A stretch of DNA of 44,661 nt from Synechococcus sp. UW140 (GTDB lineage Bacteria > Cyanobacteriota > Cyanobacteriia > PCC-6307 > Cyanobiaceae), in NCBI GenBank assembly GCA_945877115.1, contig CAMCQR010000008.1, positions 1 through 44,661 of the forward strand, in the 5' to 3' direction. The notes below the pieces were generated by a model, which was not told the DNA's origin, made no database searches, and saw only the letters and a list, made by a program, of their open reading frames with translations. Both the position numbers and the translations under genes were made by a program. Below, in pieces: positions 35,826 through 44,096 of this stretch. Within the stretch, counting starts at the first letter, position 1; every line of letters begins with the position of its first letter.

Positions 35826-37166
35826 TCAGGCGTGCTCCCGCAGGAAGCCGATGGCCCCAACCAGCTCAGCGGCGAAATGGTCGATTTCCGCCTCCGTGGT
35901 CGTGAAGGCCAGACTGGCCCGGGCCGAGCCACTGAGGCCGTAATGGCGATGCAACGGTTGTGTGCAATGGTGGCCGCTGCGGATGCAGATCCCCGCCGAA
36001 TCCAGCAGGGAGGCCAGGTCGTTCGCATGCAGCCCCTCCACCGCAAAGGCAGCCAGGGCGCCACGATCAGGCTGTTGTTCGGGGGTGGGTCCAAGGATTC
36101 TCAACCCTTCGATGGCTTGAAGCCTCATAAACAGTCGCTGGGTTAGGTGCTTCTCCCAGGCATGGATCCGGTCCATGCCGAGGACTGAGAGATAGTCCAG
36201 GGCGGCCCCCATGCCGATAGCCTCGCCGATAGCTGGGGTGCCGGCCTCGAACTTGTGGGGTAATTCGGCCCAAGTGCAGCGATCCAGAAAGACGTCCTGA
36301 ATCATCTCGCCACCGCCCAGAAAGGGGGGCATCGCCTCCAGCAGGGCCTCCCGGGCCCAGAGGAACCCCATCCCCGTTGGACCGCAGAGCTTATGGGACG
36401 AACCCACCAAGAAATCACAGTCGAGCTGGGCCACCGAAAGGCTCTGGTGGGGCAGGCTCTGGCAGGCGTCCACCAAAATCAAGGCACCCGCGCTGTGGGC
36501 CAGTTCGGCAAGACGGGCCACCGGATTGCAAGCCCCGAGGGTATTGCTGACATGCACCACGCTCACCAAGCGGGTGCGCTCGTTCAGCTTGCTGATCCAA
36601 TCGTCGACATCCAGCTCGCCACTCTCGGTGACTCCGGCATGGCGAAGTACGCAGCCGGTGCGCTGGGCCAGCAACTGCCATGGCACGAGATTGCTGTGGT
36701 GCTCCATTAACGTAAGCAACACCTCATCGCCATGCCGGAGGAAGGAATCCCCCCAGCTGCGTGCCACCAGATTGATCGCCTCACTGGCGTTGCGGGTATA
36801 AACAATCTCGCGGGAGCTGGCGGCACCGATGAAACGGGCGACCGTCTCCCGGGCCCCCTCAAAGGCCTCGGTGGCCCTGACACTCAATTGGTGGGCCCCC
36901 CGGTGCACGTTGGCGTTGTCATGGCCGTAATAGTGGTTGATGGCCTCAAGCACTTGATGCGGCTTCTGGCTGGTGGCGGCGTAATCGAGATAGACCAAGG
37001 GCTCGCCAAGACAGGCAATTTGATCCAACAGGGGAAAATCAGGCCGTGTCAGCACCGCCAGGTCTTCAACGGTGGGCACCGAATTGCCTGGATCAATCCC
37101 AAAAAGAGTTGGCGCCGCATCGGCGGGCAGTGGCCCGTGGGATGCGAGGGGGCTGACCATGGTCAT
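35826..37166 (-). CDS. sufS: Cysteine desulfurase SufS
   Basis: A 446-residue PLP enzyme with a ~45-residue N-terminal extension. Lys259 in GSSHKLCGPTG binds PLP, ANVHRGAH is the SufS signature and Cys401 in RSGHHCTQPL is the active-site cysteine. It takes sulfur from cysteine as a persulfide for Fe-S cluster assembly. The ATG overlaps the sufD stop (ATGA). It is the last gene of ftrC-sufB-sufC-sufD-sufS, and a palindromic terminator follows. The usual partner sufE is not in the window. Confidence 0.96.
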   Translation of the reverse strand: MTMVSPLASHGPLPADAAPTLFGIDPGNSVPTVEDLAVLTRPDFPLLDQIACLGEPLVYLDYAATSQKPHQVLEAINHYYGHDNANVHRGAHQLSVRATEAFEGARETVARFIGAASSREIVYTRNASEAINLVARSWGDSFLRHGDEVLLTLMEHHSNLVPWQLLAQRTGCVLRHAGVTESGELDVDDWISKLNERTRLVSVVHVSNTLGACNPVARLAELAHSAGALILVDACQSLPHQSLSVAQLDCDFLVGSSHKLCGPTGMGFLWAREALLEAMPPFLGGGEMIQDVFLDRCTWAELPHKFEAGTPAIGEAIGMGAALDYLSVLGMDRIHAWEKHLTQRLFMRLQAIEGLRILGPTPEQQPDRGALAAFAVEGLHANDLASLLDSAGICIRSGHHCTQPLHRHYGLSGSARASLAFTTTEAEIDHFAAELVGAIGFLREHA

Positions 37167-38464
37167 CGGGGCAAGGCTTGACGCAGCAAGGCATTGGCAG
37201 GCTCCCAGCGGGAGGCGGACTTCGGCAAGCTGGCCAGGATCTCGTCGCAGAACCCGTCCAGGAGCAAACGCGCGGCCTGATCGGCACCCAGGCCGCGACT
37301 ACGAAGATAAAAGAGCTCTTCCTGCTGCAACCGGGTCACGGTGGCCCCGTGGGTACAGCGCACGTCATCAGCAACGATCTCCAGCTGGGGAATGGCGTCT
37401 ACCCTGGCCCGGTCGGAAAGCAGCAGGTTGCGGCTCAACTGGGAAGCACTGGTGCGCTGGGCCGCCTGGGGGACCTGCACTGCCCCATGGAAAACGCTGC
37501 GACCGGCATCGTCGACCACGGCTTTCTGCAGTTGGTCGAGCTGACCATTCGGTCCTTCAAAACGCACAAGGCTATGGAGGTCGGCGATCTGCCGATCGCG
37601 TGACACCTGCAATCCCCGCAGCCGAGTGGCCGCGGACCCCTGCACCTGAATAATGGCTGGCTCCAGTCGCACCAGCCCCCAGCCGCCCGCCGCCGTGGTC
37701 AGGTCCAGTTCGCTGGCGGGGGCCTGAGAAACGGCCAAGTGGGCGAGCAAACAACTCGACTCCGTACCTTGGGCTAGGACGCCGTAGCGCAGTCGGGCCC
37801 GGGGTGCGAGCTGGGCCTCCACCAGCACCGAGGTGAGGCTGGTGCCCGCAGCACGATGGACCTCCAACAAATCCAGGCTGGCGTCCTCCTCCATCACTAA
37901 CAGCAGTCGCAGGGGCCGCACGCCGCTCCCCTGGCCGCAATCACTCACCAGCTCCAGGGGCACAGCCACATTTCCCCGCACCCGCAAAGCCAATACCTGG
38001 CCGGCAAGGGCGGTGTTGAAGCGCACCAACCAGGAACCTGTGGTGCCGGCCACCTCAAGCACCGTGCCCAGAAGGCTGTCCTGGAGCCCGGTTTCCAGGC
38101 GAGAAAGGCCTTCCGGCAGGTCCATCCCAGCCAAAGGATCCCGGTCACCATCCCAGTACAGCCTCAGGGCCCCGCTGGCAGGGGGATGGTCCGGCTTAGG
38201 CCCCAGCAGCTCGGGCACTGGCAAAACCTGGGGGGGCACGGCGATCAGGGGGGCCAGGCTCGTGAACCGCCAGGCCTCCTGGCGGGTTGGGGGCAGACCT
38301 GTGCGCCGAAGCTCGTCCCGGGCCGCGGACCGTCTCCGGGGCAGGCCCCCTAAGGATGCGCCGGGGGCGGGCAGGGACGGCTCGAACGCCTTCAAAACGG
38401 ACTCCAGCCAGGCCGTTGAGGCCGATCCTGGGGCCGTAACTGGTGACATTGCGAGGGAGACCAT
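37163..38464 (-). CDS. sufD: Fe-S assembly scaffold protein SufD
   Basis: A 433-residue protein starting at the ATG at 38464, one base past the sufC stop. The N-terminal half is poorly conserved, but TRQEAWRFTSLAPL (about residues 60-73) is a SufD mark. The C-terminal core has the SufB/D beta-helix pattern, with FHGAVQVPQAAQRTSASQLSRNLLLSD, then CTHGATVTRLQQEELFYLRSRGL, shown in short pieces. It pairs with SufB and SufC in the BC2D scaffold that builds Fe-S clusters. It overlaps sufS by four bases. Confidence 0.93.
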   Translation of the reverse strand: MVSLAMSPVTAPGSASTAWLESVLKAFEPSLPAPGASLGGLPRRRSAARDELRRTGLPPTRQEAWRFTSLAPLIAVPPQVLPVPELLGPKPDHPPASGALRLYWDGDRDPLAGMDLPEGLSRLETGLQDSLLGTVLEVAGTTGSWLVRFNTALAGQVLALRVRGNVAVPLELVSDCGQGSGVRPLRLLLVMEEDASLDLLEVHRAAGTSLTSVLVEAQLAPRARLRYGVLAQGTESSCLLAHLAVSQAPASELDLTTAAGGWGLVRLEPAIIQVQGSAATRLRGLQVSRDRQIADLHSLVRFEGPNGQLDQLQKAVVDDAGRSVFHGAVQVPQAAQRTSASQLSRNLLLSDRARVDAIPQLEIVADDVRCTHGATVTRLQQEELFYLRSRGLGADQAARLLLDGFCDEILASLPKSASRWEPANALLRQALPR

Positions 38465-38465
38465 T

Positions 38466-39284
38466 TCAGGCCACCTCAAGGGCCGTAGCGTCAGCCTCGG
38501 CATGATCTGACGATGCAAGACCCTCGTCGACCCAGTCGTAACCGCGGCGTTCGAGTTCTAGGGCCAGTTCTTTGCCAGCGGTGCGCAGGATGCGACCCGC
38601 AGCCATCACGTGCACGAAATCAGGGGTAATTTCATCCAGCAACCGCTGGTAATGGGTAATCAACAGGATGCAGTTGTCAGGGGTGGCCAACTGATTGACC
38701 CCGGCCGAAACAATGCGCAGCGCATCGATATCGAGTCCAGAATCAGTCTCATCGAGGATGGCCACCAAGGGATCCAGCAGGGCCATCTGCAGGATTTCGT
38801 TGCGTTTTTTTTCGCCACCGGAAAAGCCCTCATTGACGCTTCGTTCCAGGAAGGCCGGATCCATTTGCACCACCTTCAAGCGCTCGCATACCAGATCTTC
38901 AAAGGCGAAGGTATCTAGCTCTTCGCCCCCTTGGGCCAGGCGACGGGCATTGGTGGCGACCCTGAGAAATTCAAGGTTGCTCACCCCAGGAATCTCGACG
39001 GGATATTGGAATCCCAGGAAGACGCCAGCGCGGGCCCTCTCCTCTGGTGCCAGCGCCAACAAATCGTCCCCTCTGTAGCGAACCGTACCCGCCGTGACGG
39101 TGTAAGCCGGATGGCCTGCCAAGAGTTTGGAGAGGGTACTTTTTCCGCTGCCATTGCGACCCATCACGGCATGAATCTCGCCGGCCCGCAAGGTCAGATC
39201 AACCCCTTTGAGGATGGGTTGATCGCCCACCGTGGCATGGAGATTACGGATCTCAAGAAGGACGGGGGCGTCGGGTCGGATCAC
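38466..39284 (-). CDS. sufC: Fe-S assembly ATPase SufC
   Basis: A 272-residue ABC-type ATPase. It has [16 protein letters not shown] (Walker A, residues 42 on), [15 protein letters not shown] (the SufC-specific Q-loop), [13 protein letters not shown] (signature) and [12 protein letters not shown] (Walker B). It starts at a GTG (39284); no ATG lies before the Walker A region. SufC binds SufB and SufD and uses ATP to open the scaffold. The gap to sufB is 83 bases, and sufD starts one base after its stop. Confidence 0.96.
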
Positions 39285-39367: not shown

Positions 39368-40810
39368 CTACCCGACGGAGCCCTCGAGCTTGAGAGCAAG
39401 TAGCTTATCGGCCTCAGCCGCAAATTCCATTGGCAACTGATTAAAGACATCGCGACAAAAACCACTCACCATCATCGATACAGATTCCTCCAGTCCAATG
39501 CCACGGCTCTGCAAATAGAAGAGCTGATCTTCTGAAATTCGGCAGGTGCTGGCTTCGTGCTCGATACTGGCGTCAGGCTGCTGAGATCGCAGGTAAGGGA
39601 AGGTGTTTGCGGCGGCCGTATCGCCAATCAACATCGAATCGCACTGACTGTAGTTGCGTGCCCCGACCGCCTTAGCGCCGATCTGCACAAGACCGCGATA
39701 ACTATTGCTTGAACGGCCGGCACTAATGCCCTTACTGATGATGGTGGAGCGAGTCCCTGGGCCGACATGGATCATTTTGGTTCCAGTGTCAGCCTGCTGA
39801 AGGTTATTGGTGAGAGCTACGGAATAGAACTCTCCACTGGAATCTTCACCCTGCAAAACGCAGCTTGGATATTTCCAGGTGATGGCCGACCCTGTCTCCA
39901 CCTGGGTCCAACTGATGTGGCTGCGAGCGCCACGGCAATGGCCACGCTTTGTAACAAAGTTATAGATACCTCCAACACCTTTCGCGTCACCAGCATACCA
40001 ATTCTGAACGGTCGAATACTTAATATTGGCATCATCAAGCGCTACCAATTCAACCACAGCAGCGTGGAGCTGATTGGTGTCGAACATCGGGGCCGTGCAG
40101 CCCTCAAGATAGCTGACACTAGCGGCTTCTTCCGCAACAATCAGCGTGCGCTCAAACTGGCCCGTATCGCCAGAGTTAATGCGAAAATAGGTGGAAAGTT
40201 CCATGGGGCAGGAGACACCCTTGGGAATAAAAACGAATGAACCGTCACTAAAAACCGCTGAATTCAAAGCCGCAAAAAAATTATCATTAATGGGTACAAC
40301 TGTGCCCATATAGCGCTCTATCAAGTCAGGATGGTCTTTGACGGCCTCACTGATGGAACAAAATATGACGCCATGTTCAGCCAACTTTTCCCGATAGGTT
40401 GTAGCAATAGAAACACTATCAAAGACCGCATCGACAGCGACATTACTCAGGCGCTTTTGCTCACTTAGAGGTATGCCCAACTTATCAAATGTCTCTAAAA
40501 GTTTTGGATCAACCTCATCCAGGCTGGCCTTTTTGGCTTGCTGCTTGGGAGCAGCATAATAAATCATCTCTTGATAATCAATCGGCCCATGGCCCAAAGA
40601 GGCCCAGTCGGGCTCTTCCATCTGCAACCACTGGGCATAGGCCCTGAGTCGAAAATTCAGCAAAAAGAGAGGCTCATGCTTTTTGGCTGAAATCAGCCTC
40701 ACCACGTCTTCGTTGAGGCCCTTGGCGATCTTCTCAGTCTCGATATCAGTGACGAAGCCGTAGCGATACGGCTGACTCACCAAATCTCCAACAGAAGCGG
40801 TGCTGGTCAT
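39368..40810 (-). CDS. sufB: Fe-S assembly scaffold protein SufB
   Basis: A 480-residue protein from the ATG at 40810; an in-frame TTG at 40828 overlaps the ftrC stop but is less likely. It is very conserved: [16 protein letters not shown] at the start, [41 protein letters not shown], then [14 protein letters not shown] with the assembly Cys and [18 protein letters not shown] near the end. It is the core scaffold on which Fe-S clusters form, and part of the SufBC2D complex. It is followed by sufC, sufD and sufS. Confidence 0.97.
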
Positions 40811-40824
40811 GGTGATGGGGGGAA

Positions 40825-41214
40825 TCAACCGCTAGTTAGGGACTTAACCTCAGCAAGGCTGATGGTCTGCTGATCACCGCGGAAAGGATTGTCTTCGGTC
40901 AAAAAGAGCATGCAATGACATTCCTTTCGCTCACGCATGGGCACGCAAGGACAGTTCCAAAAGGCCTGGGCCACCTCGGCCTTCTTGTCCTCGTAGTGCC
41001 GACAGGGACATAGGGCCCCACCCAGCTCATCTTTGTTCCGCGCCAACCCCTCTAGGACGACAGCCGTGACGCCTGGATCACTGCAAAAATAGGTTCCGGT
41101 GCGCTGGGCGTAGGTTTCGGCAAAGCGACGAATGACTTCCAGGCTGTTATCGGTTCCGCCCGGGCCTGTAGCGCTGCTGGGAGCCGTAGGGACAGAAGCG
41201 TCGGAAGCAGGCAC
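40825..41214 (-). CDS. ftrC: Ferredoxin-thioredoxin reductase, catalytic beta chain
   Basis: A 129-residue protein from the GTG at 41214. The frame stays open to 41472, but the added part would run through the divergent promoter and is not conserved. Three Cys pairs are present: Cys69/71 (CPC), Cys88/90 (CPC) and Cys99/101 (CHC). These give the four ligands of the [4Fe-4S] cluster and the redox disulfide, which takes electrons from ferredoxin and reduces thioredoxin in the light. Flanking text [12 protein letters not shown] and [19 protein letters not shown] is typical. It is the first gene of the suf operon and itself depends on an Fe-S cluster. The stop nearly abuts sufB. Confidence 0.92.
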
Positions 41215-41273: not shown

Positions 41274-41301
41274 ACTTGCGAAACCTCAGAGTTTCGTAAG
41301 T
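41274..41301. promoter_or_regulatory. Candidate SufR operator
   Basis: An inverted repeat: 41274-41284 (ACTTGCGAAAC) and 41291-41301 (GTTTCGTAAGT) match as reverse complements except for one base, with a 6-base spacer. The inner core AAAC-N6-GTTT closely resembles the published SufR site CAAC-N6-GTTG of Synechocystis. It lies 60 bases before the ftrC start and 144 before sufR, in the divergent promoter region. It would repress both directions when Fe-S supply is sufficient. Confidence 0.7.
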
Positions 41302-41444
41302 CGGGAGCCTAGGGCACTGGGCGATGGTCTGGGGCCGTTCCTTCAAGATCACCCATTGTGCTCCCTTAGGGATGGGATCGCGGGCCCAGGACCCCCAACG
41401 AAGCGCCGAAATGCGTGGCATGGTGGTCAAGCTCGCTGCCAGCC

Positions 41445-42173
41445 ATGGAGCCCCAACCCCGCAACAGATCAAGTGTCACAGCCGTGGCACCGCCCACCCG
41501 GGAGGCCGCCCTGGCCGTGCTGTTGCGTCAAGGGGAATGCACCGCCGCCGAACTTGCTGAGCGACTAGCGGTTTCCGTCCAAGTGATGCGGCGCCACCTG
41601 CGCGGCCTGGAGGAAGATCAGCTAGTCGAAGCCAGTAGTTCCCAAGCCGGACCGGGACGCCCTAGCAATCGCTGGCGGCTCACGGAGATCGGCCATGGCC
41701 GCTTTCCCGATGGCAATGAGGCCTTTGCTATGGGCCTGCTCAAGTCCATGGCAGCCACCCTGCCCCCCGAGATCCAGGCAGCACTATTACAACAGCAGGC
41801 AGTGGTCAAAGCAGCCAACTACCGCCACCAGATCGGCGAGGGCCCCCTGCAACAGCGACTGCAGCGACTGGCCGAACTGCGCTGCAGCGAGGGTTACGTC
41901 ACCGAATATCAACGCGAGGCGACCGGCACCCTCCCGGCCGATGGCCCCAACCAGGCCTGGCTGATCAGCGAGCACCATTGTTCGGTCATGCGCATCGCCG
42001 AAGCGTTCCCCGTGATCTGTGACCAGGAACTTCTGCTGATCCGCCAGGCCTTCCCCGATTGTGAGGTTGAAAGGGTCCACTGGCGTCTGGAAGCTGGCCA
42101 CGCCTGTGGCTTCCGGCTCATGCCCCTGGCTGCCCCTCCAGCGACACCGACCCTCTCCCAGCCGTCGTGCTGA
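41445..42173 (+). CDS. sufR: Fe-S cluster-dependent transcription repressor SufR
   Basis: A 242-residue protein from the ATG at 41445; the ATG at 41415 would add ten residues. The N-terminal DNA-binding domain (AALAVLLRQGECTAAELAERLAVSVQVMRRHLRGLEE, in pieces) is a winged helix of the DeoR/ArsR type. Four cysteines at 179, 192, 206 and 221 are spaced exactly C-x12-C-x13-C-x14-C, the SufR cluster signature. It carries a [4Fe-4S] cluster and represses the suf genes and itself when clusters are plentiful. It diverges from ftrC-sufBCDS, with the candidate operator between. Its stop lies within the start of the next gene. Confidence 0.94.
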   Translation: MEPQPRNRSSVTAVAPPTREAALAVLLRQGECTAAELAERLAVSVQVMRRHLRGLEEDQLVEASSSQAGPGRPSNRWRLTEIGHGRFPDGNEAFAMGLLKSMAATLPPEIQAALLQQQAVVKAANYRHQIGEGPLQQRLQRLAELRCSEGYVTEYQREATGTLPADGPNQAWLISEHHCSVMRIAEAFPVICDQELLLIRQAFPDCEVERVHWRLEAGHACGFRLMPLAAPPATPTLSQPSC

Positions 42174-42565
42174 GCCCGGACGATCAGTATTGGATCGAAG
42201 TCCTTGGCCTGCCCGCCATGGAGGAGCACAAGTTGCGACTCTTAGCCCACGGACTACGAACCCTCCAGACCATCGCCGCTCGCCGTCAAGGCCCGACACC
42301 GGCCAGAGTCAGCATCGAATCCTGGGTCCTAGGGCAGCCCCTGATCGCTGAAGATACGGGTTTTGTCCAAGCCTTTGTGCGCGAGCTGGTGGGGCTAGGC
42401 GGCCAGTTGGATCGGCTCGCCATGAACCGATCCATGACCCCACTCAGCCTTGAACTGCCCGATCTGCTGGCCTGGATCGAAGAACACCGATCCCCCAACC
42501 CCAACATCACGGAGCCGGACCCTGGCTGCGATCATCGTGACCGAATCTCCGCGCCGTCCCCGTGA
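42167..42565 (+). CDS. Unknown 132-aa protein coupled to sufR and the lyase gene
   Basis: A 132-residue soluble protein with a GTG start that overlaps the sufR stop by 7 bases. Its own stop overlaps the next gene's GTG in a GTGA. The first ~105 residues look well ordered: DQYWIEVLGLPAMEEHKLRLLAHGLRTL and IESWVLGQPLIAEDTGFVQAFVREL, mostly helical and with no cysteine. The last ~25 residues are polar and may be dispensable. There is no membrane segment or signal peptide. I recognise no family. Both neighbours suggest a link with Fe-S-regulated expression or phycobilin attachment, but nothing in the sequence states a function. Confidence 0.75.
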   Translation: MLSPDDQYWIEVLGLPAMEEHKLRLLAHGLRTLQTIAARRQGPTPARVSIESWVLGQPLIAEDTGFVQAFVRELVGLGGQLDRLAMNRSMTPLSLELPDLLAWIEEHRSPNPNITEPDPGCDHRDRISAPSP

Positions 42566-43209
42566 CCGCTTCCCCAACTGATGCCCTGGCCTTCTTCCGC
42601 CAGAGCTGCGGCCGCTGGCGATCCCGCCGCAGCAGCCATCACCTGCTGCATCGCCGGGCCGAAGCGGGGAGTTCGTTCATTGAAGTGGTGGCCCTAGAGC
42701 CGGAGGACCCCCGTCTGATCGCGATCGCGACCCTGCACGGTCAGGATCCAACCGGGCTGGTCGGAGGCTGCCAAGTGCGCTGGAGTGGCTCGATGGCCTG
42801 GGACAAAGCCGGCGAAGCCCACGAAGGCGAAAGCGTGTTCGGATTGATCCCGACCGATGACCGGGGTCGCGAAGGGCTGCTGCTGCGGGATCGGGGCTAC
42901 GCAGAAACGGCACCCGTCGCCGGCCGCTTTGCCATGGACACCCACGACGAGCTGCTCCTGACCACGAACTACGAAACCATGAACAGCGTCGAACGCTTCA
43001 GCTTCCTTGGCCCCAACGTGCGGCTGCGGAGCAGCACCGTCGAAGGGCTTTCCAACACCGCCTCCTTCTGCATCGAAACCCGCCTGGCCGAGGACGAAGC
43101 CGGGGCGGAGCCCCTGGCCAGCTCCATCGCTACGACACCAGGATCGGCGCCAGACCCCACGGCGCCGCCATCACCACCCAACCGGCCCCTCTCGCCCCTG
43201 GGTTGGTAA
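42562..43209 (+). CDS. CpcS/CpeS family phycobilin lyase
   Basis: A 215-residue protein with a GTG start in a GTGA overlap. The N-terminus DALAFFRQSCGRWRSRRSSHHLLHRRAE, then RWSGSMAWDK, HEGESVF, GLLLRDRGYAETAPVAGRFAMD and FLGPNVRLRSSTVEG match the S-type lyase fold (fatty-acid-binding-protein-like barrel), in short pieces. These enzymes attach phycobilin to Cys84-type sites of phycocyanin or phycoerythrin. The C-terminal ~35 residues are Pro-rich and probably disordered. CpcS, CpeS and CpcU cannot be told apart from sequence alone. The cpcG gene follows after about 125 bases, consistent with phycobilisome assembly. Confidence 0.87.
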   Translation: MTASPTDALAFFRQSCGRWRSRRSSHHLLHRRAEAGSSFIEVVALEPEDPRLIAIATLHGQDPTGLVGGCQVRWSGSMAWDKAGEAHEGESVFGLIPTDDRGREGLLLRDRGYAETAPVAGRFAMDTHDELLLTTNYETMNSVERFSFLGPNVRLRSSTVEGLSNTASFCIETRLAEDEAGAEPLASSIATTPGSAPDPTAPPSPPNRPLSPLGW

Positions 43210-43334
43210 TCCCAGTTGATGCTGGCGGCTAGGCAAGGTTGCCAACGTTACGGTCTGTGAGTCCTGCGTTCCCCAGCCGAGACCAGCGGGGGGGGGACAC
43301 TTCTAAGATTCTTGCCACGGTTGCCAGACCCCGC

Positions 43335-44096
43335 GTGGCTCTTCCCCTCCTCAACTACCCCCCCACCACCAAAAACTCCAGGGTGACTACCTTCCGGGTG
43401 GGCTCTGATGAGGATCCCAAGGCCGCGTCCATGGATAAATCCATGGACCGGGAAGATCAGAATTTCTTAATTGAATCGGCCTATCGCCAAATCTTTTTCC
43501 ACGCCTTCAAGGTGGATCGGGATCGCACTCTAGAAAGCCAACTGCGGGATGGCCAGATCACCGTGCGTGATTTCATCCGATCCCTTTGCCTCTCGGACAC
43601 CTTCAACCGCAGTTTCTATACTCTCAACAATAATTATAAGGTGGCGCGTCACCTTGTCGAAAAGTTGCTCGGACGCACCGTTCACGGCAAGTCGGAAGAG
43701 ATCGCCTGGTCTGCCGTACTGATGACTCGGGGCGTCAAGGGCATGGTCGACGACATCCTGAATTCAGAAGAATATCTAGATAATTTCGGTTATGACACGG
43801 TTCCCTACCACCGCAACCGGGTCGTAGGCTCCCGCCGGATCGGCGAAACCCCCTTCAACATCACCTCGCCCCGCTACGACGCCTACCACCGCAACATTCT
43901 TGGGTTCCCCCAGATCGTCTACACCGGAACGGCCAAGACCTATCCCCCTCGCGCCCAGCAACGACGTGGCGGCTACCCCGAGGACTATCTCACCTGGGTA
44001 CGCAGTCTGCCCGCCTTGCGCGGCGTGGGCGCCCCTGCCGGCAACACAGCGATGGACTATCTCGCCAAAGTCCCCTACCGCAGCATCGGCCGCTGA
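43335..44096 (+). CDS. cpcG: Phycobilisome rod-core linker CpcG
   Basis: A 253-residue protein from the GTG at 43335. This start gives the known beginning (M)ALPLLNYPPTTKNSRV and a normal CpcG length, while the longer frame from 43239 does not. The PBS-linker domain (about residues 12-165) has IESAYRQIFFHAFKVDRDRTLESQLRDG, then TVRDFIRSLCLSDTFNRSFY and AEEIAW-like SEEIAWSAVL, in pieces. The C-terminal part links the rod to the allophycocyanin core. A G9 run lies in the leader (43288-43296). A clear intrinsic terminator follows the stop. It supports a phycobilisome-bearing host rather than Prochlorococcus. Confidence 0.95.
   Translation: MALPLLNYPPTTKNSRVTTFRVGSDEDPKAASMDKSMDREDQNFLIESAYRQIFFHAFKVDRDRTLESQLRDGQITVRDFIRSLCLSDTFNRSFYTLNNNYKVARHLVEKLLGRTVHGKSEEIAWSAVLMTRGVKGMVDDILNSEEYLDNFGYDTVPYHRNRVVGSRRIGETPFNITSPRYDAYHRNILGFPQIVYTGTAKTYPPRAQQRRGGYPEDYLTWVRSLPALRGVGAPAGNTAMDYLAKVPYRSIGR

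Follow-up and report, generated by a model that had tools for sequence, protein, structure and literature searches.

The interval between the divergent ftrC-suf and sufR genes of this cyanobacterial contig raises the question of whether the inverted repeat that it contains is an operator of the Fe-S cluster repressor SufR, and how a core that departs from the known site should then be read. In Synechocystis PCC 6803 the SufR operator is CAAC-N6-GTTG (Wang 2004 and Shen 2007, via the reviews PMC8593673 and PMC13421787), and the same reviews describe SufR as regulating suf (and ftrC) through a site of this type conserved in cyanobacteria.

In the window, that is, the whole stretch of 44,661 nucleotides analysed, the minus strand carries ftrC (40825-41214, GTG start at 41214; PF02943, 143.6 bits), encoding the catalytic chain of ferredoxin-thioredoxin reductase, sufB (39368-40828; NF008773, 876.7 bits), sufC (38466-39284; TIGR01978, 350.5 bits), sufD (37163-38518; TIGR01981, 216.6 bits, just below the cut-off of 222, the frame being an upper limit with the start probably further in) and the cysteine desulfurase gene sufS (35826-37166), a 446-aa open frame that is SufS-like by eye. 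On the plus strand, adjacent to and divergent from this operon, lies sufR (41445-42173, with a possible in-frame GTG start at 41415), whose product scores 194.7 bits against the equivalog model TIGR02702, above its cut-off of 178.8. Its cysteines 179, 192, 206 and 221 form the pattern C-X12-C-X13-C-X14-C, which is the published cluster-ligand pattern of SufR (PMC8593673). Past sufR (42167-44096) there is a 132-aa frame without a family match that overlaps its neighbours by a few bases, followed by frames for a phycobilin lyase of CpeS type and a rod-core linker resembling CpcG.

The repeat, ACTTGCGAAAC-CTCAGA-GTTTCGTAAGT, is placed at 41274-41301 in the 230-bp gap between the GTG of ftrC and the ATG of sufR (41445), with the left arm ACTTGCGAAAC at 41274-41284, a 6-bp spacer at 41285-41290 and the right arm GTTTCGTAAGT at 41291-41301. 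The preliminary description of an 11-bp inverted repeat with one mismatch and a six-base spacer, located between the two divergent units, was borne out, as 10 of the 11 pairs match; a repeat search of the window recovered the same repeat in an extended form, with 16-nt arms at 81%. When taken alone, without comparison, the repeat is weak and only suggestive evidence, given that an 11-bp repeat with 10 or more pairs arose in 3.7% of first-order Markov shuffles of the interval when any spacer of 0-20 nt was allowed, and in 0.3% with a spacer of 6 nt, and that 57 repeats of equal quality (spacers 0-20) occur across the window. Scans for consensus promoters and terminators gave no matches.

The repeat is beyond chance because it is conserved. 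In sufR loci gathered across many genera of the Cyanobiaceae (n = 104; assigned by record names, including Cyanobium, Synechococcus WH 5701, RCC307, SynAce01 and others, Vulcanococcus and similar), a weight matrix that was itself built from 99 of the tested loci gave scores of 15 bits or more upstream of sufR in 102 cases. Of the two exceptions, one (L161) lies on a contig masked with 792 N and the other (L110) has no clear site. A more independent check is offered by named genome records, where the site was present in 79 of 79, many of them of the same species. Thus, the alignment of this interval from related strains, proposed earlier as a test, revealed a conserved repeat. In the window, the matrix built from relatives scored 27.0 bits at 41274-41301, the runner-up anywhere reaching -3.3, which upholds the claim of a single copy in the interval. 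This is general in the family, in which a weak second site (5.0 bits) was detected in only 1 of 99 loci.

The family form of the putative operator is ACGAAAC-N6-GTTTC(G/C)T, the second arm being frequently GTTTCCT in marine genera, and the conserved half-site extends over approximately nine bases, (T/A)(T/A)ACGAAAC. An exact GAAAC/GTTTC core was found in 95 of 99 sites, with 81 different spacers among them; such constant arms around variable spacers are those of a protein dimer site. The view that the core is close to CAAC-N6-GTTG has to be modified accordingly: the window core GAAAC-N6-GTTTC is indeed a variant of it, but the replacement of CAAC by GAAAC amounts to a new binding code throughout the family and not to a slight deviation. 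The outer ACTT/AAGT pair, described before as longer arms of the site, could not be maintained as a feature of it, since among 99 sites only three have it, namely those of the window genome and of the two genomes closest to it.

The state in other families was assessed with 22 sufR loci from cyanobacteria outside the Cyanobiaceae. Twenty of them carry at least two sites of CAAC-N6-GTTG type, mostly 38-49 bp apart, in agreement with the published Synechocystis site. Read towards suf, TTGACA lies within the first site and the second site directly follows a TAnnnT, which is located exactly 18 nt past TTGACA in 19 of 21 loci, so that the pair of sites embraces the core promoter; a TACAAT-like sequence overlaps TAnnnT in these promoters, and either could be the -10 element. 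With two sites in 20 of 22 outside loci and one in the Cyanobiaceae, the latter would have lost one site and changed the core of the other. The distance of the retained site to the -10 element indicates that it most likely corresponds to the start-proximal member of the ancestral pair. The ACTT/AAGT arms had suggested homology with the -35-proximal site instead, but this was rejected because only three genomes have these arms and because the -10 distance matches that of the start-proximal member.

On the suf side of the operator, a TAnnnT ends 0-8 nt upstream of it in all 98 Cyanobiaceae loci measured, compared with just 8 occurrences on the sufR side in the same 98 loci. In the window this sequence is TAGGCT (41306-41311, minus strand, at a family-conserved position), the probable -10 element of the ftrC-suf promoter, in which case transcription would start inside the operator. 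No conserved -10-like element was found on the sufR side among the 98 family loci. In the window, 143 bp separate the operator from the start codon of sufR, and control of sufR by its own product through this one site is no more than a possibility. A separate block, CCATTGTG at 41353-41360, lying to the right of the operator at a distance of approximately 40-55 bp, is conserved in most close relatives and could be part of the sufR promoter or leader.

An alignment of 126 SufR proteins (the 104 from Cyanobiaceae and the 22 from other families) revealed that Cys 179, 192 and 221 are invariant in all 126 and Cys 206 is present in 123, whereas the recognition helix differs, reading S-V-Q-(A/V)-M-R-R-H-L-R in Cyanobiaceae and S-P-Q-A-I-R-R-H-L-K elsewhere. 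At residue 45, all 104 Cyanobiaceae proteins have V and 19 of the 22 others have P; at residue 53, all 104 have R and 20 of the 22 others have K. In the wing, P70 and W77 of the Cyanobiaceae replace M70 and Y77. The window protein carries V45 and R53. A locus outside the family that has V45 (L052) shows degenerate sites, AAAC-N6-GTTG and CAAC-N6-GTTA. The occurrence of the site change and the helix change on the same branch is suggestive of a link between them, although each happened approximately once on the tree, so that this link is the correlation of one event. Residues 45, 53, 70 and 77 are thus candidate specificity residues for two natural binding codes; the PDB copy searched contained no structure of a protein closely related to SufR.

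When exact ACGAAAC-N6-GTTTCGT was searched genome-wide, at most two sites per genome were detected, with almost no matches for the reversed control. The additional, non-suf site precedes a sigma-70 gene belonging to cyanobacterial group 2 (TIGR02997), which is divergent from an rsuA-type pseudouridine synthase gene in freshwater genera or from a response regulator gene in some marine ones. A further 20 regions from a family-wide scan were opened: 4 are suf loci, and the remaining 16 adjoin either the sigma gene itself or, at a contig edge, the gene that normally flanks it, the contigs breaking there because the sigma copies are near-identical. With a matrix made from suf sites only, the sigma-gene sites scored 20-36 bits and the near-identical second sigma copy below -9. 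An extended -10 element, TGnTAnnnT, overlaps the operator edge at the sigma gene in 56 of 58 cases. In the window genome, the sigma site is CGAAACACCTTTGTTTCG (contig C26 of G000, 229-246; 20.3 bits), and the gene runs off the contig end. It is the only conserved one of three extra close matches in this genome, the others scoring 12.1 and -6.7 bits; matches with two mismatches are meaningless, as their 86 per strand fall below the 109 of the control.

In a tree of the sigma copies, those with and without the site are not separated and the copies of one genome often pair, probably as a consequence of gene conversion. Therefore, the operator distinguishes these copies by their control and not by their protein, and the idea that the regulated sigma factor is a separate ortholog was discarded on the same tree. 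In the near-identical sigma pairs L142/L249, L147/L248, L221/L244, L241/L225 and L242/L226, the operator is on one copy only. A role of the site for the divergent rsuA was also rejected, given that in other genera the neighbour is the response regulator while the sigma gene stays, and that the -10-like element points to sigma.

The dependence of the motif on the regulator was assessed in 251 family genomes, 183 with sufR and 68 without it. The pattern TACGAAACN6GTTTCSTW was found in 136 of the 183 genomes with sufR versus 0 of the 68 without it (Fisher 1.7e-30, a value that is overstated, as relatives are not independent), with one match for the reversed-pattern control. Many of the genomes lacking sufR are related streamlined ones, so that the number of independent cases behind 0 of 68 is much smaller than 68. 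The 47 sufR genomes without an exact match are explained in part by the strictness of the pattern, under which the window genome itself scores 0. In four searched genomes without sufR (G068, G075, G097 and G114), a single close sigma copy was detected, without the site; the regulated copy may have been lost there together with sufR.

The ancestral motif, TTGACAAC-N6-GTTGYTAA, was scanned in 116 genomes of the class, yielding 46 sites, of which 30 were opened: 22 are at suf, 7 are before a group-2 sigma gene and 1 (L390) was not assigned. The seven (L395-L401) belong to seven genomes of genus g16, family f16, where a complete two-site cassette of suf type lies directly upstream of the sigma gene. 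Two distant families thus have a SufR-type operator ahead of a group-2 sigma gene, each in its local spelling, and this evidence, independent of the counts above, is difficult to account for with any factor other than SufR. The link between SufR and sigma shared with f16 is either ancient or evolved twice.

The above comparisons make it very probable that the repeat is the SufR operator in its Cyanobiaceae form, blocking ftrC-sufBCDS and, likely, the sigma gene, and that code and helix changed together. The earlier proposal of a strong candidate SufR operator gains from the identity of sufR, the family conservation and the loss of the motif where sufR is missing; the site has what SufR operators have in general, being an N6 inverted repeat at the suf promoter, conserved and tied to the presence of sufR. 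Another conserved regulator might instead bind the repeat, having acquired suf and the sigma gene as targets, with SufR acting at other sites or being inactive, as would fit a core unlike the proven CAAC-N6-GTTG and the frequent control of sigma factor genes by several regulators. We regard this as improbable, since the N6 spacing, the place and the arm geometry equal those of ancestral SufR sites, sufR still adjoins the site, the motif is missing from all 68 genomes without sufR, a second family has the SufR-type cassette before its sigma gene and the SufR recognition helix itself differs in Cyanobiaceae.

It is even harder to defend the repeat as an RNA hairpin in the ftrC leader rather than a protein site on DNA. 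A start at the operator edge would place it within the first approximately 30 nt of the transcript, and 11-bp arms could pair, but the spacer is fixed at 6 nt where an RNA loop could vary, the arms show no compensatory changes (GAAAC/GTTTC being kept in 95 of 99) and the repeat at the sigma gene overlaps the -10-like element, so that only part of it would be transcribed. As for a functionless chance repeat, to which the 57 equals in the window and the shuffle rate of 3.7% would lend themselves, it can be practically dismissed, refuted by conservation with free spacers in the 102 of 104 family loci and the 79 of 79 named records.

Returning to SufR as the factor, we also consider it likely that in this family it is a two-promoter repressor with a rewritten code, acting on ftrC-sufBCDS and on one copy of a duplicated group-2 sigma gene, through which Fe-S status would reach RNA polymerase and many promoters; this reading covers Cyanobium, marine Synechococcus and the Prochlorococcus that bear sufR. 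A SufR dimer would place one winged helix on each GAAAC half-site, across the transcription start of ftrC-sufBCDS, and with intact Fe-S clusters would exclude RNA polymerase from this promoter. Loss or reduction of the clusters would free it, allowing more Fe-S assembly and more of the thioredoxin-reductase chain. In the Cyanobiaceae, one of two ancestral sites would have been lost and the other, together with the helix, would have gone from CAAC-N6-GTTG to GAAAC-N6-GTTTC, while one sigma copy would have retained or acquired the same operator at its promoter. The start site of this copy would likewise be occluded, so that Fe-S status would set the dose of that sigma factor. From sequence comparison we infer SufR binding, repression and response to cluster state; in Synechocystis, oxidised, cluster-loaded SufR represses sufBCDS and sufR, and reduction or cluster loss derepresses them, and ftrC has been tied to SufR in PCC 7942 (PMC8593673, PMC13421787).

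The predicted operator is thus a new variant, its single copy a real trait of the family, and the sigma link, by which SufR probably also controls a sigma factor, the surprising part. On these data, the family to which the most abundant picocyanobacteria belong has a different site, which a search with the textbook motif overlooks. Control of sigma by SufR, if true, would mean that in picocyanobacteria a switch of global transcription is coupled to iron stress, oxidative stress and photosystem-I acceptor stress. No description of the SufR-sigma link or the changed site was found in the literature searched, RegPrecise and subscription papers being outside that search, and priority is uncertain.

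Among known systems, IscR of proteobacterial suf and isc promoters is alike in being an Fe-S cluster regulator that adjusts cluster assembly, but it belongs to the Rrf2 protein family, different from SufR; family scans of the window regulator returned SufR and ArsR/MarR-type helices only. The SufR proteins of Actinobacteria (Rv1460 of M. tuberculosis and that of Streptomyces avermitilis) are also suf repressors with a winged helix and Fe-S cysteines (PMC6034842, PMC8593673), although their genes head the suf operon whereas cyanobacterial sufR is divergent. With Synechocystis PCC 6803, the Cyanobiaceae have in common the divergent sufR/suf interval, the N6 inverted repeat, its AAC-N6-GTT heart, the repressor family and the suf target. 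They differ in a GAAAC half-site with a conserved CG and an A/T-rich extension instead of CAAC, in having one site, as in the window interval, instead of two, and in the extra conserved site at a group-2 sigma gene.
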